From NCBI RefSeq assembly GCF_017498545.1, contig NZ_CP071793.1, positions 7,682,256-7,746,255 of the forward strand: 64,000 nt of DNA, written 5' to 3'. Position 1 is the first letter of the stretch. The number at the start of each line of letters is the position of its first letter. Both the position numbers and the translations under genes were made by a program. Of this stretch, positions 18,051 to 64,000 are shown piece after piece. The notes beneath the pieces are model-generated. The model ran no database searches. It was not told the DNA's origin and saw only the letters and a list, made by a program, of their open reading frames with translations. Origin of the DNA: Sulfidibacter corallicola. GTDB taxonomy: Bacteria; Acidobacteriota; Holophagae; Acanthopleuribacterales; Acanthopleuribacteraceae.

Positions 18051-18128
18051 ACGCTTGAGAGCGCTACTAGTTCAGAAAGAACCCTCGATAGCAATCCAAC
18101 CAATCATCTAAAAATCGAACACCGCCAC

Positions 18129-18166
18129 ATGGCGAATGGTCCCCAGGGAACCATTCGCCATTTTTT
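18129..18166 (+). terminator. Strong intrinsic terminator
   Basis: ATGGCGAATGGT (18129-18140) pairs perfectly with ACCATTCGCCAT (18150-18161) over 12 bp, followed by six Ts. Confidence 0.9.
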
Positions 18167-19532: not shown

Positions 19533-20078
19533 ATGTTCAAAACCTATCTCAACTATGCCTGTTCCGAGTGTTCCCCCTGCTTTTACTGCGGGCCTTGTTC
19601 TCAACGCATCGACGACCTTCTGTGGGTGCACATTGAGCAGTTGCTCGCCAAGGGTGAAATCTCGGTCGACGAAATCGTTTTCGAGGTTCTCGGTGACCGT
19701 TTGACGCGAACCCATGCACGGGTAGCCCATCGTGTCGAACACATCCTCAGCCGCATGGAAAACCTGGGTACCGTCCGTTGCCAATCGAAACCCAATGGTG
19801 ATTTCTGGGGCCTCCTAAATGAATACTTCCACCCCAATTTTCGAACCAGCCGCAAAGGGGTTCTCCTTCAAATACTCCCAGGCCATTTCGGTCGCTATCG
19901 GGTTGTCAACGCCGAGGGGAAAACGCGCGATCTGACGATCAACCTTTTTCTCCAATTGAGACAAAACGGACGCATTGTCCCCATCAACCCGAGCCTGGAA
20001 GAAGCACCGAAAAACCATCCCTACCACGAGCCCGATCTCTCCGCCACCGTCACCCTCGTTCGCCAGGGGGTGGCCTGA
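19533..20078 (+). CDS. Cys-rich Zn-ribbon/winged-helix protein (paralogue 1)
   Basis: 181 residues from ATG 19533 (GCGAGG upstream). The N-terminus carries five Cys spaced as CxxC repeats (ACSECSPCFYCGPC), a likely zinc-binding knuckle. Then comes a helical domain of about 60 residues (HIEQLLAKGEISVDEIVFEV; DRLTRTHARVAHRVEHILSR) that looks like a winged helix. The C-terminal half (FRTSRKGVLLQILPGHFGRY; GKTRDLTINLFLQLRQNG) may be a second beta-rich unit. The next gene encodes a clear relative of the first half, and its start overlaps this stop (TGATG), so the two are translationally coupled. Probably a DNA-binding pair of the element's replication or transfer module. No named family is recognised. 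Confidence 0.65.
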   Translation: MFKTYLNYACSECSPCFYCGPCSQRIDDLLWVHIEQLLAKGEISVDEIVFEVLGDRLTRTHARVAHRVEHILSRMENLGTVRCQSKPNGDFWGLLNEYFHPNFRTSRKGVLLQILPGHFGRYRVVNAEGKTRDLTINLFLQLRQNGRIVPINPSLEEAPKNHPYHEPDLSATVTLVRQGVA

Positions 20079-20554
20079 TGGATTACCGCCAACGCTGCCC
20101 CAAATGCACTGAAAAAGCCCTTTGCGAAGCCTGTACGAAAACCATGACGGATCAACTCGATCCCATCGTGCTCGACTACCTCCAAAAACACCACGCCGCA
20201 ACCGTCATCCGCCTGGTCATTTTTCTTCTCGGTGACCAATGGACCCTGGCCCACGAACGTATCGCCCATCTGCTGCAAAAGCGCCTGATCCAATTTGAAC
20301 AAGGCGGAGTCGTGCGCACCATCGCCAGGTTCCAACACGCCAGGGTTTATCGATTCATTCCCGTCTTGGAACGCGCTGAAGAGCATCAACCGCAGGAGGT
20401 GGATTCAGACCTGTTCGATGACGAGGACTTCGACCTTGATGGAGATGGTTACAACCCGGATCTCGCCCCTCAAAAGAACGACGGCCTGCTTCACGACTGG
20501 TTCGATGAAGGAGCTGACATTCTCGAATTCAAACCACCGCGCAAACCCAAGTGA
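20078..20554 (+). CDS. Zn-ribbon/winged-helix protein (paralogue 2)
   Basis: 158 residues. ATG 20078 overlaps the previous stop. The N-terminal CPKCTEKALCEAC is a four-Cys zinc knuckle. The following segment (VLDYLQKHHAATVIRLVIFL; DQWTLAHERIAHLLQKRLIQ) aligns with the preceding protein's helical domain, including the G-D-x-x-T/L-x-x-H/A-x-x-R-x-A-H core. The C-terminal 55 residues are strongly acidic (VDSDLFDDEDFDLDGDGY), a typical partner- or basic-protein-binding tail. Coupled expression and shared architecture suggest a heterodimer with paralogue 1. Function unknown. Confidence 0.65.
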   Translation: MDYRQRCPKCTEKALCEACTKTMTDQLDPIVLDYLQKHHAATVIRLVIFLLGDQWTLAHERIAHLLQKRLIQFEQGGVVRTIARFQHARVYRFIPVLERAEEHQPQEVDSDLFDDEDFDLDGDGYNPDLAPQKNDGLLHDWFDEGADILEFKPPRKPK

Positions 20555-20567
20555 AAGGAGGTGAACG

Positions 20568-20627
20568 ATGGACGCACTGGTCAAAATCTTCTGGCTGTTT
20601 TCGGTGCTCTTCGACCGTGATCTCTAA
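20568..20627 (+). CDS. Micro-ORF, 19 residues
   Basis: The frame MDALVKIFWLFSVLFDRDL begins at ATG 20568, 8 nt after a near-perfect AAAGGAGGTGA, the strongest ribosome-binding site seen in this part of the window. The peptide is one short hydrophobic, amphipathic helix with acidic ends. It lies 14 nt after paralogue 2. It could be a membrane micropeptide or a leader peptide that regulates the downstream large gene. Confidence 0.5.
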   Translation: MDALVKIFWLFSVLFDRDL

Positions 20628-20748
20628 ACCCTAAACCTGCAATCTCAGCCGCGGCTCATTGATTTGGGTCGCGGCAGTTCGCAAGGAGGTGTCTTCCTAC
20701 TTTTCCTACCAACCGTGAAACGTGTTTCGCCCAACTCAGGAGGTGTGC

Positions 20749-23145: not shown

Positions 23146-23160
23146 ACCATGACCGTGATC

Positions 23161-23188
23161 GGGTCGCGCGAAAGCGCGGCCCCTTTTT
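23161..23188 (+). terminator. Terminator between large gene and membrane protein gene
   Basis: GGGTCGCGC (23161-23169), GAAA loop, GCGCGGCCC (23174-23182, one G-T pair), then TTTTT. Confidence 0.75.
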
Positions 23189-23206
23189 GACAGTGGAGGC
23201 GTCATC

Positions 23207-23584
23207 GTGAAAAAACATGCCAAGCCCGCCGCCGCCATCGATCGGTGGATGGCAGTGCGCGCCCTGTGCAGCCTCTTGATCCTCGTGCCCAATGGGTTCT
23301 TCATACTTCAACCAATTCTCGCGTTTTTGCAGGAATACGCGGTTCTTCACGGTTGGCTCATGGCCCTTTATGAGGGACTTCCCAGCTATTTCCAAGTAGT
23401 ACACCGCCACATGGGGTCACGACTGTGGCTATCAGGCGCTCAATTGGTCCTGGCCTTCTTGCTGGGGCTGGCAGCGGCAAAATCGCTTCAAACACTTGTT
23501 TTCAAACTTTTTATTTTCCTTGGCGTAGGTATCCAGGCTCATGGTGGAAGCCACTTGCTCCACCCAAATAGGGAGGCAAAATGA
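23207..23584 (+). CDS. Small inner-membrane protein
   Basis: 125 residues from GTG 23207 (TGGAGG upstream). It has two or three hydrophobic segments: about residues 19-41 (ALCSLLILVPNGFFILQPIL) and a long one at about 73-110 (AQLVLAFLLGLAAAKSLQTL and following). The N-terminus is basic, which favours a cytoplasmic start. Its stop overlaps the start of the next gene by 4 nt (ATGA), so the two are coupled. Small membrane proteins beside relaxation/transfer genes are common on conjugative elements. No family is recognised. Confidence 0.65.
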   Translation: MKKHAKPAAAIDRWMAVRALCSLLILVPNGFFILQPILAFLQEYAVLHGWLMALYEGLPSYFQVVHRHMGSRLWLSGAQLVLAFLLGLAAAKSLQTLVFKLFIFLGVGIQAHGGSHLLHPNREAK

Positions 23585-25482
23585 CACTGCGTGATGTCTT
23601 GAAATCAGGAATGGACGAGCGGACCACGGACTGGAAAGACAATCCCGAGGAGAACTCGCGCCGACCTCGTCGCTGTGGGGTCTATTCCTTACCAGCACCC
23701 ATAAAGGGTAAAGTCAGAGCTCAGGACTCGCAAAGTTCGAGCACTTCTGGCCACCTCGGGTCAACAATATTGACCCGAAAGGAAGGCAAAAGACCAAAAC
23801 GCCTATCTGAGCTGGAGCGCACAGTTTTGGCAGCGATCATGAGTAACTGCCACACTGTAATCCGGCCGCATGCCTCGGAAAAACGTCGTTTCAAAAAAGA
23901 AAATCCCCGCATTCGATTCATTTCCAACCGCATAGCCGCCATGTATTTGTTCCTGGGAAAAAATGGCGAGGCTTTTGTCGAATTTGAGAAGCGGTTACCA
24001 AATCGAGTAAGGATCACACCGATGGGTCGCGATTTCCTTGCGAACTTCACGCTTGGGGACGGTTCCGAGAGGGTGTTCAACTCTCAAGGGATCTCTAGCG
24101 TGATCATTGGCAAGCATGGCGAGGTACGAGTCTCCTCAAATGGGGATCGAACCAAGCAGGATGAGACGTGGGTGCCCACCTACACTTATGCAGCATGGAA
24201 GGTTGACGGTGAGCATCGAGGAATTGATTTGGCCGAATATAGTTCCATGAAGACCTTTAAGCTCAGACAAGAACGGACTGGGGAGGGAGCCCGGAGATTG
24301 ACGCGAGTCCTTCCAGATGGTAGCCACGATGTTTTGACTTTTCCGAAACACGTCGCCTTTTATCTCGATACCAAAGGGGAAATCCGGTACATCCAAGAAC
24401 AGCCCTACTTGGATGCCCATATCGCCGAGGCCTGTCGTCAGCTAATCGAAAGGGGTCTCGTCGTCAAAAAGGGCCGCAGCCCGGTCACCTTGACCAACTT
24501 AAAGCTGACGTCTGCTGGAGAAGCGGTCTACCTGGAGAACCCACGAAGGAAAAATGTTCCTAAGCGGCATCCTGCTTCGACCATCCCAGAGGCACGATTG
24601 AGCCCGCTCGACTGGCAACTGTTGTGGCGAGCTGTTGGCGAGGATCATACCCCCCTCCTCAGTCCCGAAAACCACATTGGGCAACCAGCGAGCAAGGTAA
24701 AGTCCCCTGCCACCAAAACGGAAATCGAAACTGCCCTAATCAATCTCAAAACCAGAGATTTGATTGTGACCCCCCAATTGCGTAGCCTGAAATTAACGGC
24801 CAAAGGCCGCCTTCTTCTAAACAGGCCGACCGATAAAGATCGGACCATTATCGATAAGCGAGAGAAACAGTTACATACCGTCTTAACCGCAGTGGGGTTT
24901 GTCCCGGAGCTGGCTCCGATGGATCCACATTCCAAGGAGGCATTGGAACAATTGAAGGGAAGCGCGAGTCTAAAGCGCATTCGAGAATACACCCATTCAG
25001 GCGTGCCCGTGAATTTGTGGGTTCCCAAATCGAAGGCGCAAGGAAACGCCCCTGCATACAAACGGAGGGAACTGGGTCACGACCTCATCCTGGCTGAAGG
25101 AATACGACAAATCATGTTGAAACTAGAAGCGGAAGGAGCCGAGGCGGTGGGTTTCCGATCCGAGCGGGACTTGAGAAGCGAACAAACCCGAATCAATCAA
25201 GGTACTCTTTCCCCGAACTCACCTGACCACTACAACGTTGGTTTGCCCGATGGAGTGATCACCTATCGCACAGCTTTCGCGGAAGAAAAGTCCCTGGGCA
25301 TAGAGGCCGACGCCGGCCATAGCCCTCTGTCGAACTCCCGCGGATACCAGCGAGACGCCATTGCTGCGAAGGCAGGGTGGGCTAAATCTCGAAATATGCA
25401 GCTCGTATTCGTAGTCGACCATCCGGCAAGAGCCGCGAATCTTAGGAGGGATGGAAGAACCGTACATTTGTTGGTTCGATAG
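23581..25482 (+). CDS. Large element-borne protein, replication-relaxation-like (paralogue 2)
   Basis: 633 residues from ATG 23581 (GGGAGG upstream), overlapping the membrane protein gene. It is a shorter relative of the 20749 product: LSELERTVLAAIMSNC and a later MYLFLGKNGEAFVEFEKRLP correspond to its winged-helix and IRYL segments, and TYTYAAWKVDGEHRGIDLAE matches its SIYASWKVDGEARRIPLSDY. The end (GLPDGVITYRTAFAEEKSLG, then IEADAGHS and MQLVFVVDHPARAANLRRDG) is the better match to a Replic_Relax-type nuclease-like domain. The last 70 nt of the gene and its 3-prime flank recur at 27296-27404, indicating that another family member once lay there. Confidence 0.55.
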   Translation: MTLRDVLKSGMDERTTDWKDNPEENSRRPRRCGVYSLPAPIKGKVRAQDSQSSSTSGHLGSTILTRKEGKRPKRLSELERTVLAAIMSNCHTVIRPHASEKRRFKKENPRIRFISNRIAAMYLFLGKNGEAFVEFEKRLPNRVRITPMGRDFLANFTLGDGSERVFNSQGISSVIIGKHGEVRVSSNGDRTKQDETWVPTYTYAAWKVDGEHRGIDLAEYSSMKTFKLRQERTGEGARRLTRVLPDGSHDVLTFPKHVAFYLDTKGEIRYIQEQPYLDAHIAEACRQLIERGLVVKKGRSPVTLTNLKLTSAGEAVYLENPRRKNVPKRHPASTIPEARLSPLDWQLLWRAVGEDHTPLLSPENHIGQPASKVKSPATKTEIETALINLKTRDLIVTPQLRSLKLTAKGRLLLNRPTDKDRTIIDKREKQLHTVLTAVGFVPELAPMDPHSKEALEQLKGSASLKRIREYTHSGVPVNLWVPKSKAQGNAPAYKRRELGHDLILAEGIRQIMLKLEAEGAEAVGFRSERDLRSEQTRINQGTLSPNSPDHYNVGLPDGVITYRTAFAEEKSLGIEADAGHSPLSNSRGYQRDAIAAKAGWAKSRNMQLVFVVDHPARAANLRRDGRTVHLLVR

Positions 25483-50930: not shown

Positions 50931-52108
50931 GCCTCTATCGATATGTACTTTATGCTTTATGTGTGTGGCTTCCCGTGGGAGTCCATGCCGCCAATGACTT
51001 GACCCTTCGCATCAAGCCAGGCACCACCGGCTTGGATACGGCAACCGGCATCCTGCACACCGACCAACTGCCGCCAGGAAGCGAATTCAGGGTCCAGGTC
51101 CTGCCCGATGACATCTCGCGACCCGTCAGTGCGATCCAGTTCAGCCTGCGCTACCCGGCCCATTTGATTCTGGTGGACACCGGCCGCGAAGCCGTGGGCG
51201 ACCCGCCGGCGATCCTCGGCGCCGATGTCCCGACGGAACATGTGACATTGCTTCCGAAATCTCGCGATGGCCGCTTCTCGTCGGAAGGCATCGACAACGA
51301 TCAAGGGACATGGACCTCGGCCTTGGTGATCGCCGATTTCGACAGCTTCCTCGAGCCATCGAGCCAGGTCCGGATTATCGCCGAGCTGCGGTTCAAGCTG
51401 GGCAACGGCGAGACACCGACTTGCGCCACCGAGGAAACTGAAATCGAACTCGTCACCTGCGATCCGGGTGAACGCATGGATTGCAGCCTGGTTGTCGACG
51501 GGCAGGGCCGGTTCATGTACAGCACCACATCGGCGGCAAAGCGAACTGTGACACTCCGCCATCAGGGTGCCGCGCAGAAGGGGAACTTAACGCGCTACCT
51601 GCCAGGCGGCGATGACCGTGTGGTCGACGCCGACGATTTCGCTGTCTTGCTGCGCTGTGTGCTGACGGGTCAGAACCGCTGTGGCCTGGCCGATCTGGAC
51701 GAGACCACTTACGCTCAGGTTACCGACCTGAACTGTTCGGGCACCACCGACTTGGCTGACGTTTCCGCCTTGCTCGATCTCCTCTCGAAAACCGCGACGA
51801 CTGCTGGAAAGAGAGCCACCGATGTTGGCCATGTCGCGGTATTCGTGTTGCCCGATGGCGGCCCAAGTGAACCTCTCGACCTGCTGGATGAAGCGGCTCG
51901 CGCGGCGGGTTGGCGGGTGGCCACCCCTCCCGGCCCCCAGGGACCGCCACGGTTGATCGTGTTTCAGGCGGATGGTCTCGACCTGAGGTTCCCCGCTCTT
52001 TCGTGGGGCGAAGCCGAGCCTGACCGCGTGATCTTCCTCGGGTCGGCCTCGCCTTCAATCCGAAATGACCTGCCGGCACTGCCTTCCCAAGAGGAGGTGA
52101 AGCGATGA
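50927..52108 (+). CDS. Exported cohesin-like/dockerin protein
   Basis: 393 residues. The signal peptide is residues 1-21 (YVLYALCVWLPVGVHA). The next 190 residues have the beta-sandwich pattern of cohesin/CBM-type modules (LTLRIKPGTTGLD; VSAIQFSLRYPAHLILVDTG; GTWTSALVIADFD; RIIAELRFKL). Residues about 226-290 are a dockerin pair: GGDDRVVDADDFAVLLRCVL and DLNCSGTTDLADVSALLDLL, with Asp/Asn calcium ligands. The last 100 residues are unassigned. Cohesin and dockerin modules bind each other with calcium in extracellular complexes. The Rhs protein encoded next, with overlapping stop and start, also holds a dockerin pair, so the three exported proteins of this operon may assemble. Confidence 0.75.
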   Translation: MSLYRYVLYALCVWLPVGVHAANDLTLRIKPGTTGLDTATGILHTDQLPPGSEFRVQVLPDDISRPVSAIQFSLRYPAHLILVDTGREAVGDPPAILGADVPTEHVTLLPKSRDGRFSSEGIDNDQGTWTSALVIADFDSFLEPSSQVRIIAELRFKLGNGETPTCATEETEIELVTCDPGERMDCSLVVDGQGRFMYSTTSAAKRTVTLRHQGAAQKGNLTRYLPGGDDRVVDADDFAVLLRCVLTGQNRCGLADLDETTYAQVTDLNCSGTTDLADVSALLDLLSKTATTAGKRATDVGHVAVFVLPDGGPSEPLDLLDEAARAAGWRVATPPGPQGPPRLIVFQADGLDLRFPALSWGEAEPDRVIFLGSASPSIRNDLPALPSQEEVKR

Positions 52109-55100
52109 AGACCCCGATGTTGGAGTTTAAAAAAATGCGTTTATCCCTGCTTACCTGGTTCAGTCTGTGTGTGTCTCTTTCATTGCCGGTGATGGCCCAA
52201 ATCAAATCGGTCGGGCTTCCGGGTAAGGCGCCCGTCATCGCTCCCTTCGTGGAAGTGGATGCGTCCGAGTACGCCAAGCGGCTGACTAAATCCGACACCA
52301 TCGTGACCGATCTGGACAAGCCAGACTTCGATCCCAACCACGCGTTCGATGCCGCCGCACCCAACGCCTCGATCGACCTGTACTCGGGCGCCTTGGTGAT
52401 TCAGGAAACCGACCTGTTCTTTCCCGGCCCCTACGGCCTAAACCTGGAAGTCAACCGCGACTACCACGGTAAGATCTACGCGCCGCGCACCGAGGATCAG
52501 CGCCTGTTGAAGCCCGACACCTGGATCGGCGTCGGCTGGGAGATGAACTGGGGCATTCTCGAAGTGAAGAGCGACGAGGTGCTCACCTTCCGCCTTTCGG
52601 GCCATGCAACCCAAAACCTGTTCCTGGCCACCGACGGCACCGGCACTGATCCGGCCGGTCAACCGACACACAACTACACCTTTACCTCACCGATCAACGG
52701 TGAGCAAGTGGTGCCCTACATGTCGCCGAGCCTGTGGCGCGCCTGGAAGCACGCACCGTCTGATGACGGCGATGGTACGGACGGTTCTGATGACGGCGGT
52801 AGCGACTCCGATGGAGACGAGGACGACTCTGGGGACGGCAACGGGCCCAACGGGGAAGAAACTGATGCCATCTGGTACGTTCAAGACCCCTCCGGCAAGA
52901 TCTATCAGATTCACTATGTGCTCGACAACATCCTGGGCCGCTGGCTGACCACCCGCATCTTCCATCCCAAGACGCAGGCTCAGATCACGTTTGACTATCA
53001 GCCCACCCAAATTCGCATCCTCCAAGACACTGGCACGCGCCTCAACGAGGTGTTCGTGCGCATCACCGATGGCGCCCTCGTTTCCGTGCAGGGTGGCGGC
53101 CGCACCATTCGTTACCGCGTCGAACCCTGCTTCCGCAGCCAGGATGACCCGCGCCTCTGCCTGCTCGAAGTCACCGATGCCGAAGGTCTCACCACGCGGT
53201 ACAGCTACGGGACCACTGGCCTTAGCTGGCCCGGCGAGTTAACCGAGATTCACACCCCGCTCGGCGCCCGCTACACCTATCACTACGGCGAGGAAACGTT
53301 CTACCACCAGCTCAGCTCCACCGGGCAATTCACCACCCGTGTGGTTAAGCGCTGGGAGCGCGGGACCCAAACCTGGACCTACACCTACGACCACCCCATG
53401 CCGCTGGAAAAAGACGAAACCCACGCGTTTTTCCCCTCGGACCAGGCGTACCTCACCACGACGGTCGAGGGCCCCGAGAACGTGCGACGCGACCACGTCT
53501 TTTACACCTACGCGGGCATGATCGCCAACGACACCACCTACACCATCATCCCCGCTGCCATCGGCCACGAAGTCCTCAGCGTGACCTACCACCACGAGCA
53601 CCTGGACGGCGAAGGCCAATGGGGCGGCCAGGTGGCATCGCACGGCTTGACCAATCAGGACGGTGCCTTCGAACTCCTGTACTTCACTCATTATAAAGAC
53701 CCCGTCATTGGGGAGGGACCGAGCATTCCCTTGCCGTCGATTCAATCCAAAATGGCCATGCGGGGACAGCGCCTTGATTTCAATACTGGCGGATACCGCA
53801 ACATGCAGGTCTTCTCCACCAGGCAGACGACCTACGGGACCGGCCCGACGACGGGCGATCCCGGCGTAAGCAAGTTCACCTGGATCCGCACCCCGTTTCC
53901 CAATCCCGAAAGGGTGACCACGCTGACCTGGGACTCCTATGCCGAGGACGACCAACACCAGGTTGAGGAGACCTTGACCTACCTGCGTACCGGCGAGCAG
54001 CTCATGCACAACCAGGTTGGCTTGGTGGCCCAGCGCGTCATCCGCCACAACCGGGCCGATGCCGACACGGGCCTCGATGGCAAGCGCGGTATGGCGAATG
54101 CGGTCACCTACACCTATCGCTACAACGCATTTGGGGACCTGACTCAAAGGACTACCCACGACCACGTGACCGGGCAAAGTGCCCAGACGCTCATCCTACG
54201 CGACTATGGCGGTCAGACCTACACCGCGATCCGACCCAACCGCGATCCTGTCACGGTGCATATGGATGCCAGTCTGATCGTTCGGATCATCGTGGACGGC
54301 ACCACCCTGCGCTCGGCAACCTACGATCCATTCGGCAACATGCGCACCTTCACCAACAGTCTGGACCAAACCACCGAGTTGTTCTACGACGATGCCGACC
54401 GTATCGAGCGAATCGTCCCGCCCATGGGGCCGACCACGGAACATCATTACACCGTCGGTGTAGGTGCGACCGTGACCAGCCGGACCGGCAGCGGCCCGGC
54501 TGAAACCCTCACGTTTGATCCTTATGGTCGCAAGACGGGCCACACCCATGACTTAATCCCCGATGCACAGTTTCAATACGGGTATGACGCCCTGGATCGG
54601 CTCGCGTCCGTCACGCATCCACGCGGAGGCGTTACCACCTGGACCTACGACGAACTCGGCCGTACCCGAACCATGACCCGTCACCGGGATGGTGTGGCTG
54701 AAGTGCTGACTCGGGAGTACCACGACTTTCACGGCACGCGGACGGTGGATCCCAAAGGGAATGCGACCACCCTGTGGTACAACGGCCAAGGCGCACCCTA
54801 CCGCCACATCGACGCATTGGGCATTCCCAGCGACTACCAACACGACGCGCTCGGACGCTTGATCCAAATCGACCGAGGCCGGATCACGCGGAACCTGAGC
54901 TACAGCGGCACAGGCCTTTTGTTGTCGGAGTCCCACCCAGAGAACGGCTATCGCAAATTCCACTACAACGATGCGGGCGATTTGATCACGACCCGGTTTT
55001 TCGGCGATGTGCCCAACGGTCAAAACGACCCTTTCCGAGTGGTAGGTCTGACCTACGACGGTCGCGGTCGGACCATCGAGGAGCGGGTGATGCCTTCGGG

Positions 55101-57246
55101 CCCCTCGATCAACTACACTTTCGACAGCGAGAACCTGACCCACATCGAGAACGAGCACAGCCGGTTCCACTTCGAGTACGACGGTGCCAATCGGCTGTCG
55201 GCCCGCCACGTGCTGTGGAAGGACGCGAACCAGGAACTGACGACCCGTTTCGACTACGACGAAGGAACTGGTCTCGTGTCTTCGATCGAGTACCCATCAG
55301 GGACGCGCGTTGCGTACCACATCGAAGAGGGGGCTGTACGCGGGGTCGAAGTGTCCGGCAATGGTGGCGCCAACGAGCTGGTGTCGCGCATCGACTACAC
55401 GGCGGGCATGGGGAGCAGCCCAAACCCGATGGTCAAGAGCTTTGGCTTGGGCAACGGTCTGAACGAAACCCGCCTGCTGGACGACTACGCCCGCCACGCC
55501 GGAGCTGAAGTCACCGGCCAGGCGGGAACCCTGTTCCGCCGCGAGTTGGCCTTCGATCCGAACGGCATGGTCACCGGCCGCGCGACTTGGCTCGATGGCG
55601 ACACGCAGCGCGAACCGGACGTCGCTGCCAGCTATCGGTACGATCCCTTGGGTCGGGTCACGTATGCCGATTACCGCAGGGCTGAATGGACGGATCCGGG
55701 TCACTCGAAATTCCAATTCGAAGACTTTTACTACGACATCCACGGCAATCTGCTCGCGCGCGGCGGAAACATCGAGCGAGCCCCACTACGCTACCTCAGC
55801 ACGCCGGACCGCAACGGTGACGGCGACATGAACGTGCGCGACCTGTGGGGCATTCAGCTCGGCGAAGTGGATGGCGGCGAAGCGAGCGCGAGCGACGATC
55901 TGGACGGTGACGGCGTTGTGGACATCGGCGACTTAGCTCGGCAAGCACTGAACTTGGCGCCGTTCGTGAAGAAGCAGGACGCCAACCCGACGCGCCTGCC
56001 GGGCTGGGAATACAACGACGACGGCAGTGTGACCACCACGCCGGATGGCGAATCCTATAGCTATAACGATTGGAATCAACTGGTTGGCTACGGTGATGGC
56101 CGACGATTGAACTACGACGCCGAAGGACGCCGGCTGGCCGAGTGGAGCGAGGGTGAGCCCACGCGCAAGCTCACGCTGTTCAACGCGGGTGGCAAACCGA
56201 TCGCCGAATACGAGCACGACGCCGAAAACCTGGTTTTGTTGCGGGAGATGTACCACTTCGAGGGCGCTCCGATCGCAGCCGACATCTACAGCCGGGATAG
56301 CGAGGCCTGCCCCGAGCGGGTGTACTACCACCGCGATTACCTGGGTAGCCCGGTCCACTACAGCGATGAGAACGGCGATCTGGTGGGTGGACAAGGTTTT
56401 ACAGCGTTTGGGAGCACCTGGAACAAGGATTTGGATTGCGTGCCGGTGCAAGACGGCTTCACCGGGCATCAAAGCTTGTCGGGCGCCGAGTTGACCTGGA
56501 TGCAGGCGCGGACCTACAACCCAAAATACGGCAGGTTTCTGCAAACAGATCCCGTGACGGTGACCAGTGAACGACTGTTCGATCCGGAGCAGTTGAACTT
56601 GTACGGATATGTCCGTAACAGTCCTGTTTCGGCAGTTGACCCTACAGGCGAGATTGCGTGGGCAGTTGCTGGCGCTCTCATTGGTGGAGGTGCTGACTTA
56701 ACTTGGCAGCTCATTCAAAACGGAGGTGACTTCGGTAAGGTCGACTACATGAGTGTTGCTGTAAGCGCAGGAACAGGGGCCTTTGGTGGCGCAGGTCTCA
56801 AGGTTGCTGCGAAAGTCGGCGGTTCTGTGGTAAAAACCTTCGGAAAACAATTCGGGAAAGAATTCCTCGATAACGCAATCCCAATTCCGAGCACCAAAGA
56901 GCTAAGAGAGGCCGGGCTGCCAAAGATTGTGGGTAGCCAAAAAGGCCTGCGCGACCCAGGGTATGTGGATGTGCTTAAAGCAGATATGAAAAATGGTGAC
57001 TTTGATTACAAATCATTGGACGGGAGGATTGGTATTAATACCGACCATTCTGGTACCGTCCAGATCAACGGAGGACATCACCGGATGACTGCTGCATTAG
57101 AGCACATGAAAGAAACCGGAGATTCGAAACCTGTAAAAGAGCTTCTAGATAACGCACGCCCTACCGAGGTCCCTAAGTTGACAAGTCAAGAAAGTCTTGG
57201 AAGAACAAAAAATCAAGCATCTTCTGCTAATCCGGAGAAAAAATAA
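52105..57246 (+). CDS. Exported Rhs/YD-repeat toxin with dockerin insert and ParB-like tip
   Basis: 1,713 residues; ATG 52105 overlaps the previous stop. Signal peptide ends near 32 (FSLCVSLSLPVMAQ). Residues about 95-215 are an N-terminal Rhs module, broken at 216-254 by an Asp/Gly-rich linker. YD repeats fill about 280-1225 and 1300-1500 (YDPFGNMRTFTNSLDQTTEL; YDALDRLASVTHPRGG). A dockerin pair lies at about 1233-1290 (DRNGDGDMNVRDLWGI; DDLDGDGVVDIGDLA). The Rhs core ends LNLYGYVRNSPVSAVDPTGE near 1510. The tip begins with a Gly-rich hydrophobic pretoxin region (AVAGALIGGGADL) and ends in a small domain with VQINGGHHRMTAALEHMKET (about 1655), matching the G-x-H-R motif of ParB/sulfiredoxin-fold toxins or nucleases. 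The tip's DNA is AT-rich against a GC-rich body. Confidence 0.85.
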   Translation: MKTPMLEFKKMRLSLLTWFSLCVSLSLPVMAQIKSVGLPGKAPVIAPFVEVDASEYAKRLTKSDTIVTDLDKPDFDPNHAFDAAAPNASIDLYSGALVIQETDLFFPGPYGLNLEVNRDYHGKIYAPRTEDQRLLKPDTWIGVGWEMNWGILEVKSDEVLTFRLSGHATQNLFLATDGTGTDPAGQPTHNYTFTSPINGEQVVPYMSPSLWRAWKHAPSDDGDGTDGSDDGGSDSDGDEDDSGDGNGPNGEETDAIWYVQDPSGKIYQIHYVLDNILGRWLTTRIFHPKTQAQITFDYQPTQIRILQDTGTRLNEVFVRITDGALVSVQGGGRTIRYRVEPCFRSQDDPRLCLLEVTDAEGLTTRYSYGTTGLSWPGELTEIHTPLGARYTYHYGEETFYHQLSSTGQFTTRVVKRWERGTQTWTYTYDHPMPLEKDETHAFFPSDQAYLTTTVEGPENVRRDHVFYTYAGMIANDTTYTIIPAAIGHEVLSVTYHHEHLDGEGQWGGQVASHGLTNQDGAFELLYFTHYKDPVIGEGPSIPLPSIQSKMAMRGQRLDFNTGGYRNMQVFSTRQTTYGTGPTTGDPGVSKFTWIRTPFPNPERVTTLTWDSYAEDDQHQVEETLTYLRTGEQLMHNQVGLVAQRVIRHNRADADTGLDGKRGMANAVTYTYRYNAFGDLTQRTTHDHVTGQSAQTLILRDYGGQTYTAIRPNRDPVTVHMDASLIVRIIVDGTTLRSATYDPFGNMRTFTNSLDQTTELFYDDADRIERIVPPMGPTTEHHYTVGVGATVTSRTGSGPAETLTFDPYGRKTGHTHDLIPDAQFQYGYDALDRLASVTHPRGGVTTWTYDELGRTRTMTRHRDGVAEVLTREYHDFHGTRTVDPKGNATTLWYNGQGAPYRHIDALGIPSDYQHDALGRLIQIDRGRITRNLSYSGTGLLLSESHPENGYRKFHYNDAGDLITTRFFGDVPNGQNDPFRVVGLTYDGRGRTIEERVMPSGPSINYTFDSENLTHIENEHSRFHFEYDGANRLSARHVLWKDANQELTTRFDYDEGTGLVSSIEYPSGTRVAYHIEEGAVRGVEVSGNGGANELVSRIDYTAGMGSSPNPMVKSFGLGNGLNETRLLDDYARHAGAEVTGQAGTLFRRELAFDPNGMVTGRATWLDGDTQREPDVAASYRYDPLGRVTYADYRRAEWTDPGHSKFQFEDFYYDIHGNLLARGGNIERAPLRYLSTPDRNGDGDMNVRDLWGIQLGEVDGGEASASDDLDGDGVVDIGDLARQALNLAPFVKKQDANPTRLPGWEYNDDGSVTTTPDGESYSYNDWNQLVGYGDGRRLNYDAEGRRLAEWSEGEPTRKLTLFNAGGKPIAEYEHDAENLVLLREMYHFEGAPIAADIYSRDSEACPERVYYHRDYLGSPVHYSDENGDLVGGQGFTAFGSTWNKDLDCVPVQDGFTGHQSLSGAELTWMQARTYNPKYGRFLQTDPVTVTSERLFDPEQLNLYGYVRNSPVSAVDPTGEIAWAVAGALIGGGADLTWQLIQNGGDFGKVDYMSVAVSAGTGAFGGAGLKVAAKVGGSVVKTFGKQFGKEFLDNAIPIPSTKELREAGLPKIVGSQKGLRDPGYVDVLKADMKNGDFDYKSLDGRIGINTDHSGTVQINGGHHRMTAALEHMKETGDSKPVKELLDNARPTEVPKLTSQESLGRTKNQASSANPEKK

Positions 57247-57257
57247 TCCTATAAAGT

Positions 57258-57289
57258 GTTGTGGCACGCGGTGCTTCGCGTGTCACAAC
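57258..57289 (+). terminator. Hairpin after the Rhs gene
   Basis: GTTGTGGCACGCG (57258-57270) pairs with CGCGTGTCACAAC (57277-57289) over 13 positions (one G-T pair). The T-run is weak (ATAAAA), so the hairpin may partially terminate ahead of the next gene. Confidence 0.6.
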
Positions 57290-57399
57290 AATAAAACGAA
57301 CCTGCGCCTTTCTTAGGTTAAGCCCTTCTCTTTAAAGGAATGATTGCACATGCACAGTTTCTCTCAGTTTTTTTCAAGATCGCCAAAAAAGGAGAAATT

Positions 57400-57993
57400 A
57401 TGAGCGTATTGATTCATTCAAACGGGTTCGAATTCTACAATAAATTCATCCCTCCGTTTCAATTAAGGGGTGGAGATAATATTCTGTTAAATATCAATAT
57501 CCCTCTCTCTGGAAGAACAGGAAGGGGGTTGTCATCAATTTTAACGGGACAAAAGAGAGAACCACACCTGCATGTTTCTGGGAGGGGTTCTGTTGCACAA
57601 GTCCCTCTGTGTCAGTTTGACATCAAAAGACATTCTCTTAAGCACCCTCTTGATAAAAACATTATGGATGAGTTTAGACTATCTGACCAGGCTGTCCTTC
57701 GAAACATACAAAAGAACTGGCAGAAAGTTGACCTGAGAACGCTGGGATTCCTTGACAAGATAGTGTTTTCAATATCTTCTCTTCCGAACTGTGATTTTGT
57801 CGTTTTTTCTCAATCATGCTTAGATCCAAAAAATCGAAATAGCATTATGCGTGCAGTAAAGAAAAACGAGCGCTTTTCAGCTTCAATAGCCATTGATTTT
57901 AGCTCTACTTTCTCAGATTCGGAAGAAGGGTGGACCGAACTACATGCCGAACCTATACCCGATTTTCCCAAAAAACTATTTTATTTTTTTTAA
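57400..57993 (+). CDS. Unknown protein, candidate immunity to the ParB-like Rhs tip
   Basis: 197 residues. I choose ATG 57400 (MSVLIHSNGFEFYNKFIPPF), with AAAGGAG 7 nt upstream, over a start 60 nt earlier. The protein is cytoplasmic, with mixed alpha/beta composition (QLRGGDNILLNINIPLSGRT; FLDKIVFSISSLPNCDFVVF; NERFSASIAIDFSSTFSDSE). It is AT-rich like the toxin tip immediately upstream, and it is the first gene after it in the same direction, 150 nt away. That is the normal place for an immunity gene, and a cytoplasmic location fits a nucleic-acid- or nucleotide-targeting toxin. No family is recognised. Confidence 0.55.
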   Translation: MSVLIHSNGFEFYNKFIPPFQLRGGDNILLNINIPLSGRTGRGLSSILTGQKREPHLHVSGRGSVAQVPLCQFDIKRHSLKHPLDKNIMDEFRLSDQAVLRNIQKNWQKVDLRTLGFLDKIVFSISSLPNCDFVVFSQSCLDPKNRNSIMRAVKKNERFSASIAIDFSSTFSDSEEGWTELHAEPIPDFPKKLFYFF

Positions 57994-58378
57994 TATCACC
58001 CTCAAAAAACGATCGTCTATTTCTGTCAAACCATTGTGCATACTATGGTTTCGGCATCGGCCTCCCTGCTGAGTATTGCCCTAGTTATTGGTTTTCTTAA
58101 CGAGGCCAGAACAACAACTCATGCGTTGTAGCTTGATTAGCCAACAGTTACGAGGGCTCCTGCAGGATCGTTGATGACGTATCTCGGCACCACCCCCAAG
58201 TCCGGACCCTACGATCGCGAACGAGCTGAAAGGTCGCTCCGGCTGCTCCATTGGTTTCAGGGGCTGCCCAAATCCTAATACCGAATTGTACCCGGTCAAC
58301 TCTGACCGCGCTATCCGTGGCCAACAGCGGGTTTACGAGAAGCATGGATAAATAAAATCATCCGTCGCGCGGGCCCCG
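57994..58378. other. Gene-free stretch before the type II leader
   Basis: No gene is supported. Composition rises sharply in GC at about 58360 where the structured leader begins, marking the return to the backbone module. Confidence 0.4.
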
Positions 58379-58527
58379 CCTGATTGGGCTCGATCCTGGG
58401 TGCGGAACCCGAGGCTGGGCCAGCCTCGCTTCGCTGTTCCGGCTTGCCCCACCTCGAAACCCGCCCCCGTGTTCCGCCCAAATCAGGGAGGCCCGCGCTT
58501 AGCTGCCTCCCGCAACGGGAGGAACAC
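58379..58527 (+). promoter_or_regulatory. Structured 5-prime leader, type II (copy 1), Shine-Dalgarno in a hairpin
   Basis: Nested helices: P1 CCTGATT (58379-58385)/AATCAGG (58481-58487); P2 GGGTGCGGAAC (58398-58408)/GTTCCGCCC (58471-58479, one bulge); P3 CGAGG (58410-58414)/CCTCG (58452-58456); P4 GGGC-c-AGCC (58417-58425)/GGCT-t-GCCC (58441-58449), with a 15-nt loop containing CGCTTCGCTGTTCC. Downstream, CCTCCCG (58506-58512)/CGGGAGG (58516-58522) buries the Shine-Dalgarno of the GTG at 58528. The core is nearly identical to that at 63243. Confidence 0.65.
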
Positions 58528-61500
58528 GTGACCGTTCAGTTCTATCCAACCAAGCCCATCGTCGCCTACCACCTGGGTGACCTTTTTTTCAGGCAATGCA
58601 CCTCGTCCCTCGAATCGTTTGCCGATCTTGGCGCCGGTACCGGCAATCTCACCCGCGGTATTCTCAGCAAATACCCCCAAGCATGGGGTCAACCCACAGC
58701 CCACCTGGTCGAACCGGTTCGTCGTACCGACGGCAAAGGCCACTTTGAATTGCAATCCTTTGTGGATCAGTCGGACGCCCGACTCTACCAAACCACGGCC
58801 GAAGAATTCGCGGTGACCTATGCGACACCGGATATGGTCGACGCAGTGATCTGCAATCCACCCTTCGGTAAACGGATCGGAACCACGTCACTCGACGAGC
58901 TGGTCACCGACATCCACCTGCCGCAACTCTTCTGTTTCGAAAGCTATTTCCTGTTCCTCGCCAGCCAGATCGCCAAAACCTGGATGATGTTCATTCTGCC
59001 CGACAGTTTCGCCAATCAAGCGGAGAATCAATTCATGCTCAGGCGGCTGGCGAACATGGGTTGGAACCTGCAAGACCTTCGTCGCCTTCCGCTCGACGCC
59101 TGCGATAACTCATTGGTCCACATGAGCCTTTGGCTTTTCAAACGAGTGGGACCCACAGAAACGGTCTTCGACTGGGTTGACCGAGCGATTGCCACCGCCC
59201 AAGCTCACAATGGGTCACCTCTTTACCGACAGGTCACCGAGGAAACCGTCACCAACCGCCACGGCCCACTGCAGGGCTATCTGTTGCCGGAAACACCCCT
59301 CATCTCCTCTAGTCAGGCATTCAAGACCACCAAGGTTTGGGCACCCGATCTGACCGTTCCGGCAATCCACTGGACACCCGAGCCCCAACCGATTGGAACT
59401 CTTTGGGAACGCCAAGGATGTATGTATGCCTTGACGGATTCAGGCTGGGCACCCGCCAACGAGGGTGGCTACGCCGAGGGGCTACCCGTATCGAAACCCT
59501 TTCAGAGGGCTCGACGTGCCCATGCCTTATTCCGTGCGGGCTTGGCTTATACGGCGTACACCCTGCTGGAATGCCTTGATCTCGCCGCGCTTCGGAAAGA
59601 ATACGGTACTTTCGGCTTTGGCAGCTTTCTGGCCGGTTTGGAAAAGGGCCCTTCGGTTCCAGATCCCATCGCCCGAGATCTGGCCAATCTGCGCCTGGTC
59701 AACATTGCGGCGGATCTTTTAACCGGGTTTGAACAGCCGGTGCACCTGGCCCGCATTGGCGATGCCTTGTTTGATCCTGATTCTCTAGATGTCCCGCAAA
59801 TCGCGAGTTTGGCCGTGCGTTTTGGTGAAGACCGATTGCTTCCGCAGAATCGAAAAACCTTGGACGAAGCCCTGCAAAGCCATCAGATTCCACTGAGCCA
59901 GTTGAAGCTTCGGGCGGCCTGGATTCCTAGGCCGATGATCGAAACACTGTTCGGGCTCGCAACCGGCCGTGATGGGTTCTACTACTCGCCCCGAAGAAAA
60001 GCACCGATGCTGACGGCGTTGTACTCGGGTGTGGTGGCCTATTTGAACTACGGCCGTGGCGGCAAACGCATCAGGGAAGGTGATCCAGACATCTATGAAT
60101 TGGCGTGCCGAGAGTTCGCAAGTTGGGCCAATGGTTGGGCACGCCCGGAAGCGCCTCACCTTCGCCGTCAACTTCACCTCCACTACTTGGCCACGAAAAC
60201 GGAAAGCACGAATGTATTGGCCTGCCTTGGTTCCTTACAACCGAGCGTCCCCCCGCATTGGTACCAGAAGGAAGACGTCCCGTTCATGCTCTCAGGCGGA
60301 CTGCTGGCTTGGGATGTGGGCCTCGGCAAGACCTTTGGTGCCATCCTCGCGGCCGTGTCACACGGAAGTAAAGCGGTGATCGTGGTGCCCTTGGCGGTCC
60401 TCTCGAAATGGGCGAAAGAAGTGCGCATTTTCTTCCCCGAGTTACCGTTTCGTGTGCTCGGATTTCGTAAGAGCAGGCGCGATTCGACGAAGTACGTACG
60501 CAGTACCGCCGACATGGAACAACAGGTGCGCGATTCGTTTTTCAACCCAACGATCCGAATCATCTTGACCACCTATGAGCGTTGGGCGGCGCTGACCTTG
60601 GACCCCCAAGAGCGGATCCGAGCCGACAAAGAGGAGGCCTTGGACCGCTACGGTTCAAGCGACAATGAGACGATCAAGAAACAGCGAGCGGCCTTCGTGC
60701 AATATGCAGCGGAACGGAACTACCACTTCGGTGGCCTGTTCAAATTCACCGATCTGCCCCTGAAAAACCTGCTCTTGATCGTCGACGAGGCCCACAACTA
60801 CAAAAGCCTGTATGCGATGCCGACCGGTGGCTGGGGCGACTCGCTGGTCATGGCGGGCGGCTGCGGCGAATCGAAACGGGCCCGCGACTTGAGGATGAAG
60901 GCCGACCTGATTCGCGAAGCGGGCGGTAAGGTTTTGGGCTTGACGGCCACCCCGGTCACGAATTCGGTCGCGGAAGCCTTCAACATGCTGCGGCTGTTCT
61001 ACCCAGACGCCTTGGCGAAACGAGGCATTTACTCGGTGCAGGCCTTCATCGACAGCTTCTGCACCATTGAGCCGATCTGCACGGTCAAGTTGAGCGGGCA
61101 GGCGGTGATCGGAAACACGATCACGGGCTTCACGAATCTGAACGAACTGAAATCGATCTGGCAGGAGGCCATGATCGCGCGCACGGCCAAAGATGCCAAG
61201 CTGAAGCTCCCCGAAGTAGAAGAAACCGTGATCCGCATCGAGCCCAAAGGCGACCTGGCCCTGTATATCGACGACCAGAAGGAGCAGCTCGCCGAGAGCC
61301 TCAGTCAAAATCCAAGTGACTCCGATACCAAGGTGCCCCACCTGTTTACCGTCATGGCCCGGTTGAACGCGGTGGCGGAGTACCCTGGTCTCTGTGATGT
61401 GGAGAGCAATCCGAAAATGACACGCATGGTCGACCAACTGATGCAGTTGTATCGCGAGACGACAGGTGGCCAAATCGTGTTCTCGGACATGACAGAGGCG

Positions 61501-63147
61501 CAACAGGCCATCAAGCGAAAGCTCGTCGAAGGAGGCATCCCAGAAGCCGAACTGGCGATCATTAACAGCAAGACCTGTAAAACGTTGGCGCAACGTCAGA
61601 AGATTCAGGACGATTTCAACAGTGGCCACACACGGGTCGTCATCGGCGGCGTGGTCGCGAGTGAAGGCCTGGACTTACAGAAAAACGCCGTGGCGATCCA
61701 CTTCAACACGATTTGCTGGAACGCGCAGGCGATGCACCAGCGAACGGGTCGGGCGGTCCGGCAAGGGAATCCCCACCCACGGGTGCACCTCTTCTATTAC
61801 TTGCTGGACGGGACCCTGGTTGTATACCGGTTCGCGACCTGTCAAAACAAAAGCCACTGGTGGGAAATGCTACGCAAAGCACAAACCGACAATATCCAGG
61901 AGTCGGTGTTCAGTGAGGGGATCTCAGATGAGATGATCGCGTCGCTGGCACCCGATCCGGTCGTGGCCCTGCTTGAATTGAAAAACCTACGCCGAGAGAA
62001 AGAACTGGCCAAGCAGATGAAGGACTTCAGGAAGCTGTTGCTTCAGATGTTGGAGTTTATGGGACCGATTCACCAAGGGGGTGGTGCGCCGGTCTTGAGC
62101 CAGTTGGAAGAACGGATTCGGACCTTGGAATGGATTCCAGAGCGTATCGTCCAAGAAGGTCTGCGACGGGTTTGGACCTACCACCATTTTGGGCGTGCCA
62201 TCGTTCCTCCGAAAGTCGCGAACAAGGCCGAGCGATGGACACGGACCATCACCAACGCACTCAAGGATTACCAACACAGATTGGATCTTTGGGGGGATTC
62301 GATTCTGGGAACCGTGTTCGGATTGACGGTAGAAGAGGGCGAGGTCGTGTTCCGTTGTACCGTCGAATCCCTGGTCCCGGAGACCTTTCGGGATCGAATT
62401 CCGGAATGCCCGGAAACCTTCATCCTGCCACAGGAAACGAAGACATCGATCAGGGATAGATTTTTGGCGCAAGGTCGTCGCATGATCGTGCTGGGAGAGT
62501 TGGGTTCCACCACATCGGACATCAAACCAGAGACGGTTATAGATGTGTCTGCCCATGCCGAAGCGGAGGAACACTCTGATCAGAGGACTGCCCAACCTGC
62601 GGTCCAACCATCGGAGAAGTCCACATCACCACACCAGGTGCCCGCAGAAGTCGAGGAGCACGCCACGGCTGCGGCAATCCCAAAGGCATCGGATTCCGAC
62701 GTGAAGGTTTCTCATCTTGAACCCGAACCTGTGAGTGCGTCAGCCGGATCCGAACTGGCGAAAATGCCTACGGTTGAAGACCCTGAACCGAACACCTCTG
62801 AACCTCTGGTTGTTTGTGCTGTCTCTGTGAAACCCGAGCCTCAGGCCGTGAGCCAGATCAAAGCCGAGCCGTCCGTCACAGCGCCGAAGGCTGGTTCCAA
62901 ACCCCCACCGACGACAAAAACGACGCGGCCGAAAACGCGAAACCCCAGAGTCGCCAGCAAAAAGACCAAAACAGAACGCATCTCGATGGCTAAAAAACCA
63001 GCGCAGCCCAAGCGCAAGACCAAGGTCCCCCAGGGGCAGATGCTCTTGCCAGGCATGGACGCGTACCTGAAGGGTGTCGAACCCAAAGTGGCCGAGGTCA
63101 AACCGATGCCGAACCAAATGGAACTACCCTTGGCGAAGGCAAGTTGA
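58528..63147 (+). CDS. Large N6-adenine methyltransferase-superfamily II helicase fusion
   Basis: 1,539 residues. The frame is open from 58384, but that stretch is the structured leader; GTG 58528 has GGGAGG upstream. Residues about 33-112 hold methyltransferase motifs: ADLGAGTGNLTRG (SAM binding) and ICNPPFGKR (catalytic NPPF). Helicase motifs follow: DVGLGKT (about 595, Walker A), LLIVDEAHNYKSL (752, DEAH), GLTATPVTNS (805), VASEGLDLQKNAV (motif V) and MHQRTGRAVRQGN (1069, motif VI). The C-terminal 170 residues are a Pro/Glu/Lys linker with a basic patch, and end with QMLLPGM and QMELPL, resembling beta-clamp-binding peptides. Such fusions occur on plasmids, ICEs and phages, where they protect or unwind element DNA. 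No restriction nuclease is adjacent. Confidence 0.85.
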   Translation: MTVQFYPTKPIVAYHLGDLFFRQCTSSLESFADLGAGTGNLTRGILSKYPQAWGQPTAHLVEPVRRTDGKGHFELQSFVDQSDARLYQTTAEEFAVTYATPDMVDAVICNPPFGKRIGTTSLDELVTDIHLPQLFCFESYFLFLASQIAKTWMMFILPDSFANQAENQFMLRRLANMGWNLQDLRRLPLDACDNSLVHMSLWLFKRVGPTETVFDWVDRAIATAQAHNGSPLYRQVTEETVTNRHGPLQGYLLPETPLISSSQAFKTTKVWAPDLTVPAIHWTPEPQPIGTLWERQGCMYALTDSGWAPANEGGYAEGLPVSKPFQRARRAHALFRAGLAYTAYTLLECLDLAALRKEYGTFGFGSFLAGLEKGPSVPDPIARDLANLRLVNIAADLLTGFEQPVHLARIGDALFDPDSLDVPQIASLAVRFGEDRLLPQNRKTLDEALQSHQIPLSQLKLRAAWIPRPMIETLFGLATGRDGFYYSPRRKAPMLTALYSGVVAYLNYGRGGKRIREGDPDIYELACREFASWANGWARPEAPHLRRQLHLHYLATKTESTNVLACLGSLQPSVPPHWYQKEDVPFMLSGGLLAWDVGLGKTFGAILAAVSHGSKAVIVVPLAVLSKWAKEVRIFFPELPFRVLGFRKSRRDSTKYVRSTADMEQQVRDSFFNPTIRIILTTYERWAALTLDPQERIRADKEEALDRYGSSDNETIKKQRAAFVQYAAERNYHFGGLFKFTDLPLKNLLLIVDEAHNYKSLYAMPTGGWGDSLVMAGGCGESKRARDLRMKADLIREAGGKVLGLTATPVTNSVAEAFNMLRLFYPDALAKRGIYSVQAFIDSFCTIEPICTVKLSGQAVIGNTITGFTNLNELKSIWQEAMIARTAKDAKLKLPEVEETVIRIEPKGDLALYIDDQKEQLAESLSQNPSDSDTKVPHLFTVMARLNAVAEYPGLCDVESNPKMTRMVDQLMQLYRETTGGQIVFSDMTEAQQAIKRKLVEGGIPEAELAIINSKTCKTLAQRQKIQDDFNSGHTRVVIGGVVASEGLDLQKNAVAIHFNTICWNAQAMHQRTGRAVRQGNPHPRVHLFYYLLDGTLVVYRFATCQNKSHWWEMLRKAQTDNIQESVFSEGISDEMIASLAPDPVVALLELKNLRREKELAKQMKDFRKLLLQMLEFMGPIHQGGGAPVLSQLEERIRTLEWIPERIVQEGLRRVWTYHHFGRAIVPPKVANKAERWTRTITNALKDYQHRLDLWGDSILGTVFGLTVEEGEVVFRCTVESLVPETFRDRIPECPETFILPQETKTSIRDRFLAQGRRMIVLGELGSTTSDIKPETVIDVSAHAEAEEHSDQRTAQPAVQPSEKSTSPHQVPAEVEEHATAAAIPKASDSDVKVSHLEPEPVSASAGSELAKMPTVEDPEPNTSEPLVVCAVSVKPEPQAVSQIKAEPSVTAPKAGSKPPPTTKTTRPKTRNPRVASKKTKTERISMAKKPAQPKRKTKVPQGQMLLPGMDAYLKGVEPKVAEVKPMPNQMELPLAKAS

Positions 63148-63156
63148 TCTTCAGCA

Positions 63157-63187
63157 GGGAGCGCATTCAAGGATGCGTTCCCGTTCT
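63157..63187 (+). terminator. Terminator-like hairpin after the helicase gene
   Basis: GGGAGCGCAT (63157-63166) pairs with ATGCGTTCCC (63173-63182, one G-T pair), followed by a pyrimidine run (GTTCTTCC). Confidence 0.6.
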
Positions 63188-63200
63188 TCCTCTCTCCGCA

Positions 63201-63342
63201 GGCTTCCCGATGGGGCGCCAAGATCGGTGCTGAACCCGACACGGGCCAGCCACGCTTCGCTGTTCCGGCTTGCCCGACTCGGAACCTGCACCGGGATGCC
63301 GCCCAAATCGGGAAGCCGCGCGCTTCCCTTGGGAGGAAGACG
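63201..63342 (+). promoter_or_regulatory. Structured 5-prime leader, type II (copy 2)
   Basis: P1 GGCTTCCCGAT (63201-63211)/ATCGGGAAGCC (63307-63317), 11 bp perfect; P2 GGTGC (63226-63230)/GCACC (63288-63292); P3 CCGA (63236-63239)/TCGG (63279-63282); P4 GGGC-c-AGCC (63243-63251)/GGCT-t-GCCC (63267-63275), same loop as the copy at 58426 bar one base. CTTCC and GGAAG then fold over the Shine-Dalgarno GGGAGG before ATG 63343. P1-P3 differ in sequence from the other copy but keep pairing. Confidence 0.65.
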
Positions 63343-64000
63343 ATGTTCCACACAGTTCGCATCCATCATCAGACCTACATAACCTGCCGCTATCTGTGCC
63401 ATGGTGATTACACCGGAAGTAGCATCGAAGCTGCCAACATCCGCTATTTGGAAGAACTCAAGTTTCTCAACCCGGTTCCAAGAACCTCTTCAGATCCGAG
63501 ATTTGAGAAATACTGGCACCCCACCGACATTTCGGAACAACGGTTAATCAGGTTCAAAAAAGGGAGTGCGGCCGTTCCCGACATCGAAGCCATTCGCAAA
63601 CCTTTGTTCAAAACCTACTTGGATCCCTGTACCTTCCAAGTTTGGATGGCCGAGGGCCTAGCCGCCAAGTACCGGATCGCGTCCCGCCTCGAACAATACC
63701 CCATCCTATGTGAGGACTTGGTTACAGAAGTCGAAATGGCCTGGGAAGCCGAGGACTTTTCCCTGTGGATCGATGGCGATATCGGTCGCCTTCTGGAGGA
63801 TGGCATGGAAGGCGTGAATCCAGCGCTCGCCAAGGTGTGGGCCAACCTGTCCGAAGATGCCCGCTTCGCGTTGTATCACACCACCAAAGAGTCGATGGGC
63901 ATCGATTACCTCGCGAGTCCAGGCGGGGAGCGCGGTCTTTCAACGGGGTTATCTTGCCTGATTCCCCGCATCGCAACCTCTCTGAGCCAACACACCCTAA
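63343..64000 (+). CDS. Unknown protein, cut by the right window edge
   Basis: 219 codons are open from ATG 63343 (GGGAGG upstream) to the edge, with no stop. Visible features are an N-terminal beta-like MFHTVRIHHQTYITCRYLCH, a charged middle with WHPTDISEQRLIRFKKGSAA, then WEAEDFSLWIDGDIGRLLED and ALAKVWANLSEDARFALYHT helices. It has no signal peptide. It shares the type II leader with the helicase-methyltransferase directly upstream, so it probably belongs to the same control group. No family is recognised from this part. Confidence 0.7.
   Translation, partial: MFHTVRIHHQTYITCRYLCHGDYTGSSIEAANIRYLEELKFLNPVPRTSSDPRFEKYWHPTDISEQRLIRFKKGSAAVPDIEAIRKPLFKTYLDPCTFQVWMAEGLAAKYRIASRLEQYPILCEDLVTEVEMAWEAEDFSLWIDGDIGRLLEDGMEGVNPALAKVWANLSEDARFALYHTTKESMGIDYLASPGGERGLSTGLSCLIPRIATSLSQHTL

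Follow-up and report, generated by a model that had tools for sequence, protein, structure and literature searches.

Transposase mRNA of IS10, IS50, and IS200 is subject to fold-back inhibition, in which a hairpin at the edge of the element covers the ribosome-binding site in transcripts that come from outside. A structure in the 5′ untranslated region has also been described for ISPpu9 (PMC8450116). The Frpo/ssi single-stranded DNA (ssDNA) promoters consist of several homologous long hairpins that are located directly before early genes of conjugative elements, on one strand (PMC9849209, PMC11541004).

The hairpin leaders that we analyzed in Sulfidibacter corallicola share features with each of these systems. 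As in Frpo/ssi, several of them (A, B, and D, and weakly F) are homologous within one 26-kb element, and the stem-loops lie directly upstream of genes, which would be a further likeness if they form in the transferred strand. Unlike in Frpo/ssi, as far as a comparison of features goes, −35 and −10 boxes were not found together in the stem, where a TTG(A/C)C hexamer is present with no −10 box; the stems are also G+C rich and the pairing reaches the Shine-Dalgarno (SD) sequence. The resemblance to insertion sequence fold-back is that leader A lies at the left homology limit of its element, whereas hairpins B, D, and F are internal, precede several genes, and have a conserved loop, and no promoter was seen inside A or B. 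Like translational riboswitches and autoregulatory leaders, A and B place a helix strand, an anti-SD, and the SD in a predicted alternative pairing, but unlike riboswitches and protein-binding leaders they are confined, so far as found, to a single genome and its mobile elements. REP-type palindromes are dispersed in many intergenic chromosomal copies; here, by contrast, only copies of A, B, C, and D rise above noise in 11.8 Mb.

The window, a 64,000-nucleotide stretch of the S. corallicola genome (a single contig of 11.79 Mb), contains the following features around leaders A and B. Coordinates are those of the window unless marked as genome coordinates.

58369 to 58497, plus strand: main hairpin of leader A, with helix P1, internal loop AACC/AAAC, an apical stem, and the loop CGCTTCGCTGTTCC.
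58484 to 58491, plus strand: AGGGAGGC, the P1 3′ strand of leader A, complementary to the anti-SD (possible alternative pairing).
58505 to 58522, plus strand: predicted hairpin CCTCCCG/CGGGAGG over the SD of the helicase gene; its stem is identical in the second copy of the leader (A2), with loop and linker changed.
58528 to 63147, plus strand: helicase gene with N-terminal methyltransferase motifs (DarB-like/SNF2), behind leader A.
58561 to 58590, plus strand: intrinsic-terminator-like hairpin and T run, just within the helicase open reading frame (ORF).
63157 to 63192, plus strand: terminator-like hairpin between the helicase stop codon and leader B, weaker in the second copy of leader B (B2).
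63197 to 63321, plus strand: main hairpin of leader B; B2 is at genome 176680 to 176800.
63322 to 63339, plus strand: predicted weak hairpin CTTCC/GGAAG at the SD of gene B.
63343 to 64000, continuing beyond the window end, plus strand: gene B, behind leader B and preceding a conjugation gene cluster.

Read from the sequence, leader A extends up to the GTG at 58528 and leader B up to the ATG at 63343. They share an apical core, GGGCCAGCC-N-CGCTTCGCTGTTCC-GGCTTGCCC, that differs by a single T/A change, while P1 is CCTGATT/AATCAGG in leader A and GGCTTCCCGAT/ATCGGGAAGCC in leader B. An earlier note on this DNA had reported two leaders with such a core and one difference, which our reading bore out; both lie where it placed them, although the feature goes beyond those coordinates, as there are two additional kinds of leader at the least and probably four. 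It had also proposed a folded structure upstream of both genes, and this is supported by the predicted RNA folds: leader A1, the window copy of A, has a free energy of −84.8 kcal/mol (z −3.96) and leader B1 one of −81.0 kcal/mol (z −4.43), with 0 of 200 dinucleotide shuffles as stable in either case. The stems of the leader hairpins are 65 to 75% G+C.

The gene behind leader A encodes 1,539 codons from the GTG start and matches Pfam SNF2 and Helicase_C as well as PHROG DNA methyltransferase and DarB-like antirestriction families, with an NPPFG motif read in its sequence. The product of gene B (230 amino acids) matches no known family. The terminator-like hairpin that starts 33 bases into the helicase ORF is kept in A2 with a T run one base shorter; it could end the transcript when translation is blocked, which would couple translation to transcription of the helicase gene.

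Both leaders belong to a 26-kb element, which extends from window position 58362 to approximately 84248, and the location of the leaders inside a duplicated conjugative-type element, where they recur before further element genes, is absent from the earlier note. A second copy of the element, at genome 159815 to 197779, has ~91% identity, and in it an insertion of 12 kb separates the helicase gene from leader B. Because the entire element is duplicated, leaders A and B occur as four genome copies, two each, with A2 at genome 159832 being 92% identical to A1. Homology between the element copies starts only ~10 bases before hairpin A (at 58362), and the sequence upstream of A therefore differs between them. 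Besides the helicase with methyltransferase motifs and gene B, the element encodes a VirB4/TraC-like ATPase (weak TraG P-loop match), a coupling protein resembling TraD, a PriCT_2-domain primase, a helix-turn-helix (HTH) protein, and, at its right end, a tyrosine integrase; neither a relaxase nor an oriT was identified in it. From this gene content, we read it as an integrative conjugative-type element.

The earlier note had suggested a covariance-model search from an A/B seed. We built such a model (R1) and searched it against genomes of the class and then against the S. corallicola genome, where the next best places in 11.8 Mb were two further kinds of leader, C and D: genome positions 7118656 and 7701645 (the latter corresponding to window 19390 to 19506) had equal scores and were followed by 7764156. 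A second model (R2), built from C and D only and including no A or B sequence, recovered A1, A2, B1, B2, and the second D copy at E values of 1e-9 to 1e-12, with matches to A and B on the sense strand only; this recovery is partly circular, the C/D alignment having been fitted to the R1 structure. These reciprocal model searches show that leaders A, B, C, and D are one family. Two weaker members, E and F, rank directly behind A to D in an unfiltered scan of 84 kb with the final model (E values of 0.045 and 0.11, respectively). The additional leaders are as follows.

15430 to 15591, plus strand: leader E (weaker member), before an ORF with its ATG at 15592.
19370 to 19532, plus strand: leader C, directly before the ORF at 19533 to 20078; z −8.2.
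80680 to 80809 in window coordinates, past the window end, sense strand: leader F (weaker member), directly before the primase ATG at 80823.
Genome 7764156, sense strand: leader D, in the 26-kb element, ahead of the integrase and immediately preceding the HTH gene; z −6.0.

All six kinds adjoin a start codon on the sense strand. As the sequences can be read by eye, A, B, C, and D have in common the internal loop G-AACC-C/(G/A)AAC, P1 is shared, and the apical stem carries CAAG/CTTG, mismatched in A1 and B. The segment lengths between P1, the internal loop, and the apical stem in C and D equal those in A and B within 1 to 2 bases, the apical loop excepted. Past the apical loop, each of the six kinds carries a TTG(A/C)C hexamer, which reads TTGACA in F. 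In leader C, which has an identical second copy at genome 7118656, the SD GCGAGG pairs with ACACCTCGC at the 5′ end of the leader. Leader E was matched by R2 at 15452 to 15565 (22.4 bits) and has a fold z of −4.25. The leader F stretch was the most extreme in an independent fold scan of the element and is 99.5% identical between the element copies, against an element average of ~91%.

The compensatory change that the earlier note had reported is thin in the two paralogues by themselves and decisive once C and D are included. For A1, A2, B1, and B2 alone, 97.6% of cells pair, and changes on both sides were seen at 3 of 32 pairs, a count equaled by 149 of 500 shuffles. In the seven-copy alignment, both-side changes affect 21 of 32 pairs (41 cells; 0 of 500 shuffles), with counts helped by the fitting of the alignment to the structure. 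Covariation was 0.515, compared to 0.169 ± 0.029 in shuffles and at most 0.102 in slid controls. This alignment shows an aptamer-like fold with covarying helices, and the compensatory change in it is as strong as seven sequences allow. A joint MAFFT alignment of A to D misplaced C and D and was left out of the counting. Such retention of pairing while sequence changes suggests that something acts on the folded strand, be it mRNA or transferred single-stranded DNA. Between the element copies, hairpin A has changed at 7 of 129 positions and hairpin B at 6 of 125, whereas 22.1% of fourfold sites have changed in the helicase gene and 22.6% in gene B; we counted this lower rate of change in the hairpins for an RNA leader.

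Comparison of the whole window with Rfam 15 gave no family at or above gathering, with only subthreshold chance matches at leaders A and B, in agreement with the note's statement that no described family has this core. Its riboswitch-like interpretation fared worse, as no sure copy of the leader was found outside the S. corallicola genome in samples of 297 genomes from the phylum, 93 from the class, and 40 from relatives (overlapping sets). Searches of plasmids, phages, and viral contigs and loop-pattern scans of genome contigs likewise gave no sure copy, apart from one uncertain hairpin in Opitutaceae bacterium EW11. The family may be young, or it may have been missed by these models. Beyond 26 bases matched within coding sequence of Shinella, DNA similarity to leader A in plasmids and phages was limited to chance matches. 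In viral contigs, pattern scans gave 11 chance matches with a 16-base loop and more than 120 with a 14-base loop, none of them convincing, and 18 of the 19 matches in genome contigs were unconvincing, the EW11 hairpin being retained as a possible lead. This hairpin (L085 884-937) is on the opposite strand; the intergenic region that holds it is rich in hairpins and precedes a TrwC relaxase gene. In each of two related genomes (G004 and G006), the helicase orthologue is preceded by a short leader, with a TATAAT immediately upstream; a distant orthologue in another genus (G005) has a different long leader, whose long P1 includes its SD (z −3.1), which we counted for the RNA reading. A third relative of gene B, at genome 11604896 to 11605516 (11.6 Mb), is 42% identical, contains an internal stop codon, and has no leader of the A to F family in front.

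Every one of the six kinds of leader has its SD paired when the fold is predicted, and the combined P value for burial over the six is 0.003. Burial beyond composition was found for C and D only (P = 0.007 each, the floor of a test with 150 composition-matched shuffles), where opening the SD is predicted to cost ~14 kcal/mol, above each of the 150 shuffles. In A (P = 0.12), B (P = 0.80), E, and F, burial is no greater than the C-rich composition gives. The hairpins that the note had drawn over the SD of A and B are thus predicted, as it had claimed, but do not exceed composition, and after the composition-matched test we rejected SD burial alone as proof of RNA control. In the modeled folds of A and B, the possible pairings among the P1 3′ strand, the anti-SD, and the SD exclude one another. 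When the P1 5′ strand was blocked in silico, the anti-SD moved to P1 in 4 of 4 A/B copies, and the SD was predicted to be still covered by other pairing. Blocking P1 costs 7 to 15 kcal/mol, a stability that makes a simple equilibrium switch implausible.

When folded, the template strand is more stable than the sense strand in 9 of 9 leader copies, and when folded as DNA it has the lower z in 4 of 4. Shuffles show that composition accounts for most of this advantage, with a clear excess in D and a weak excess in A2, B2, and E; one rough value per kind gives a combined P of ~0.002, in which A to D are related and hence nonindependent. Changes between copies lean to G-T on the template strand (10 versus 3), which is not significant. 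Greater template-strand stability, tried as a stand-alone proof of an ssDNA function, was weakened by the composition-matched shuffles. A scan of leaders A and B for sense promoters found none, and no member has anything TATAAT-like 16 to 18 bases past the TTG hexamer.

As a tentative first choice, we favor the explanation that these leaders, as one family of structured 5′ leaders, give RNA-level translational control in conjugative-type elements. The leader in the mRNA would form a long hairpin consisting of P1, the conserved AACC/(R)AAC internal loop, and the CAAG/CTTG-type apical stem. The hairpin base would pair with the SD in C, D, E, and F, and in A and B it would free the anti-SD strand for SD pairing. 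During chromosomal residence, and whatever the promoter, this would keep translation low for gene B and for the helicase-methyltransferase, primase, and HTH/integrase genes of the element. Release would come when an element factor, processing of the transcript, or transcription that initiates within the hairpin opens or bypasses it; we infer that the active strand is RNA, that translation is what it affects, and that release takes one of these forms. A ligand-binding translational riboswitch, in which P1 would free the anti-SD and a metabolite at the internal loop would set the balance, could make use of the mutually exclusive pairing modeled in A and B and of an AACC/(R)AAC loop that is conserved across kinds while the helices change. 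We consider it highly improbable, given that the genes behind the leaders include no metabolic gene, that the leader was not found in the other genomes of the class and phylum sample, that the internal loop is lost in the second copy of leader D (D2), and that P1 is very stable.

The main rival to RNA-level control, serious even if we judge it rather unlikely, is that the hairpins act in template-strand ssDNA in the way that Frpo/ssi promoters do in F and ColIb-P9, serving in the arriving strand as double-stranded start sites from which establishment genes would be expressed or primed before second-strand synthesis. Dispersed homologous hairpins on one strand, before antirestriction-like helicase-methyltransferase, primase, and HTH/integrase genes, are what is seen with Frpo (PMC11541004, PMC9849209). 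The greater template-strand stability in all nine copies, clearly past composition in D, the lower DNA z in 4 of 4, and the TTG(A/C)C hexamer past the apical loop in six kinds point the same way, but the missing −10 box in every member, the lack of a sense promoter by scan in A or B, and the 65 to 75% G+C of the stems argue against it, and extension of the pairing to the SD in C and D would serve no obvious purpose. A role as a DNA-level palindrome with no leader function, in which the sites would be bound by protein or form cruciforms and so serve the element's replication, transfer, or recombination, appears improbable. It would fit the location of leader A ~10 bases inside the left homology limit, the end of the 12-kb cargo difference just before leader B, and the EW11 hairpin, which has the same 14-base loop before the TrwC relaxase gene on the other strand; however, every member adjoins a start codon and has the sense orientation, the match in EW11 is a weak one (E values of 0.03 to 0.24), and stems of 6 to 7 pairs around the loop also occur in chance matches. 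Quite improbable, too, is a hairpin with a function on both strands, which would silence the ribosome site in read-through mRNA from the chromosome and provide a template-strand start site in arriving ssDNA, the transcripts from that site lacking the left arm and hence being translated. If this were true, the leader would sense integrated versus freshly transferred DNA.

The family of hairpin leaders is real and apparently undescribed, and RNA translational control is the function that we favor for it. Structured elements of this kind, not described before, would take part in controlling a conjugative-type element outside the well-studied plasmids, where one hairpin design precedes the genes for the helicase-methyltransferase and the primase as well as the conjugation cluster and the HTH/integrase genes. 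Acting as RNA, the family would amount to translational control across a whole element; acting as DNA, it would mean that single-stranded promoters or start signals also occur in integrative elements and in a new lineage.

Several further observations concern the surroundings of these leaders. Directly left of the element, at 52105 to 57993, an RHS-repeat-like protein is followed by a small ORF, possibly for an immunity protein. The 12-kb cargo of the second element copy (genome 164620 to 176630) encodes what we take to be a reverse transcriptase (YMDD), flanked by two NACHT-like ATPase proteins whose C termini are of the FGE-sulfatase type, and, presumably, a KAP-type NTPase and an IS3-type transposase; the combination of reverse transcriptase and NACHT proteins resembles a diversity-generating retroelement that targets NACHT sensors. 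Leaders E and C are borne by a second mobile-looking cluster, at 14725 to 25482, with genes for an HTH_17 protein, an SSB-like protein (weak Pfam match), small cysteine-rich proteins, and proteins of 807 and 633 amino acids with no Pfam match. A 3.65-kb portion of this cluster is repeated at genome 7117350 to 7121000 with 94.5% identity, leader C being identical, and an A+T-rich long hairpin at 18980 to 19109 (fold scan z −3.5) lies ~280 bases upstream of leader C. In D2 (genome 195430 to 195532), the 3′ arm is now a near-perfect complement of the 5′ arm, with the internal loop lost, a change that fits template-switch correction of a quasi-palindrome.
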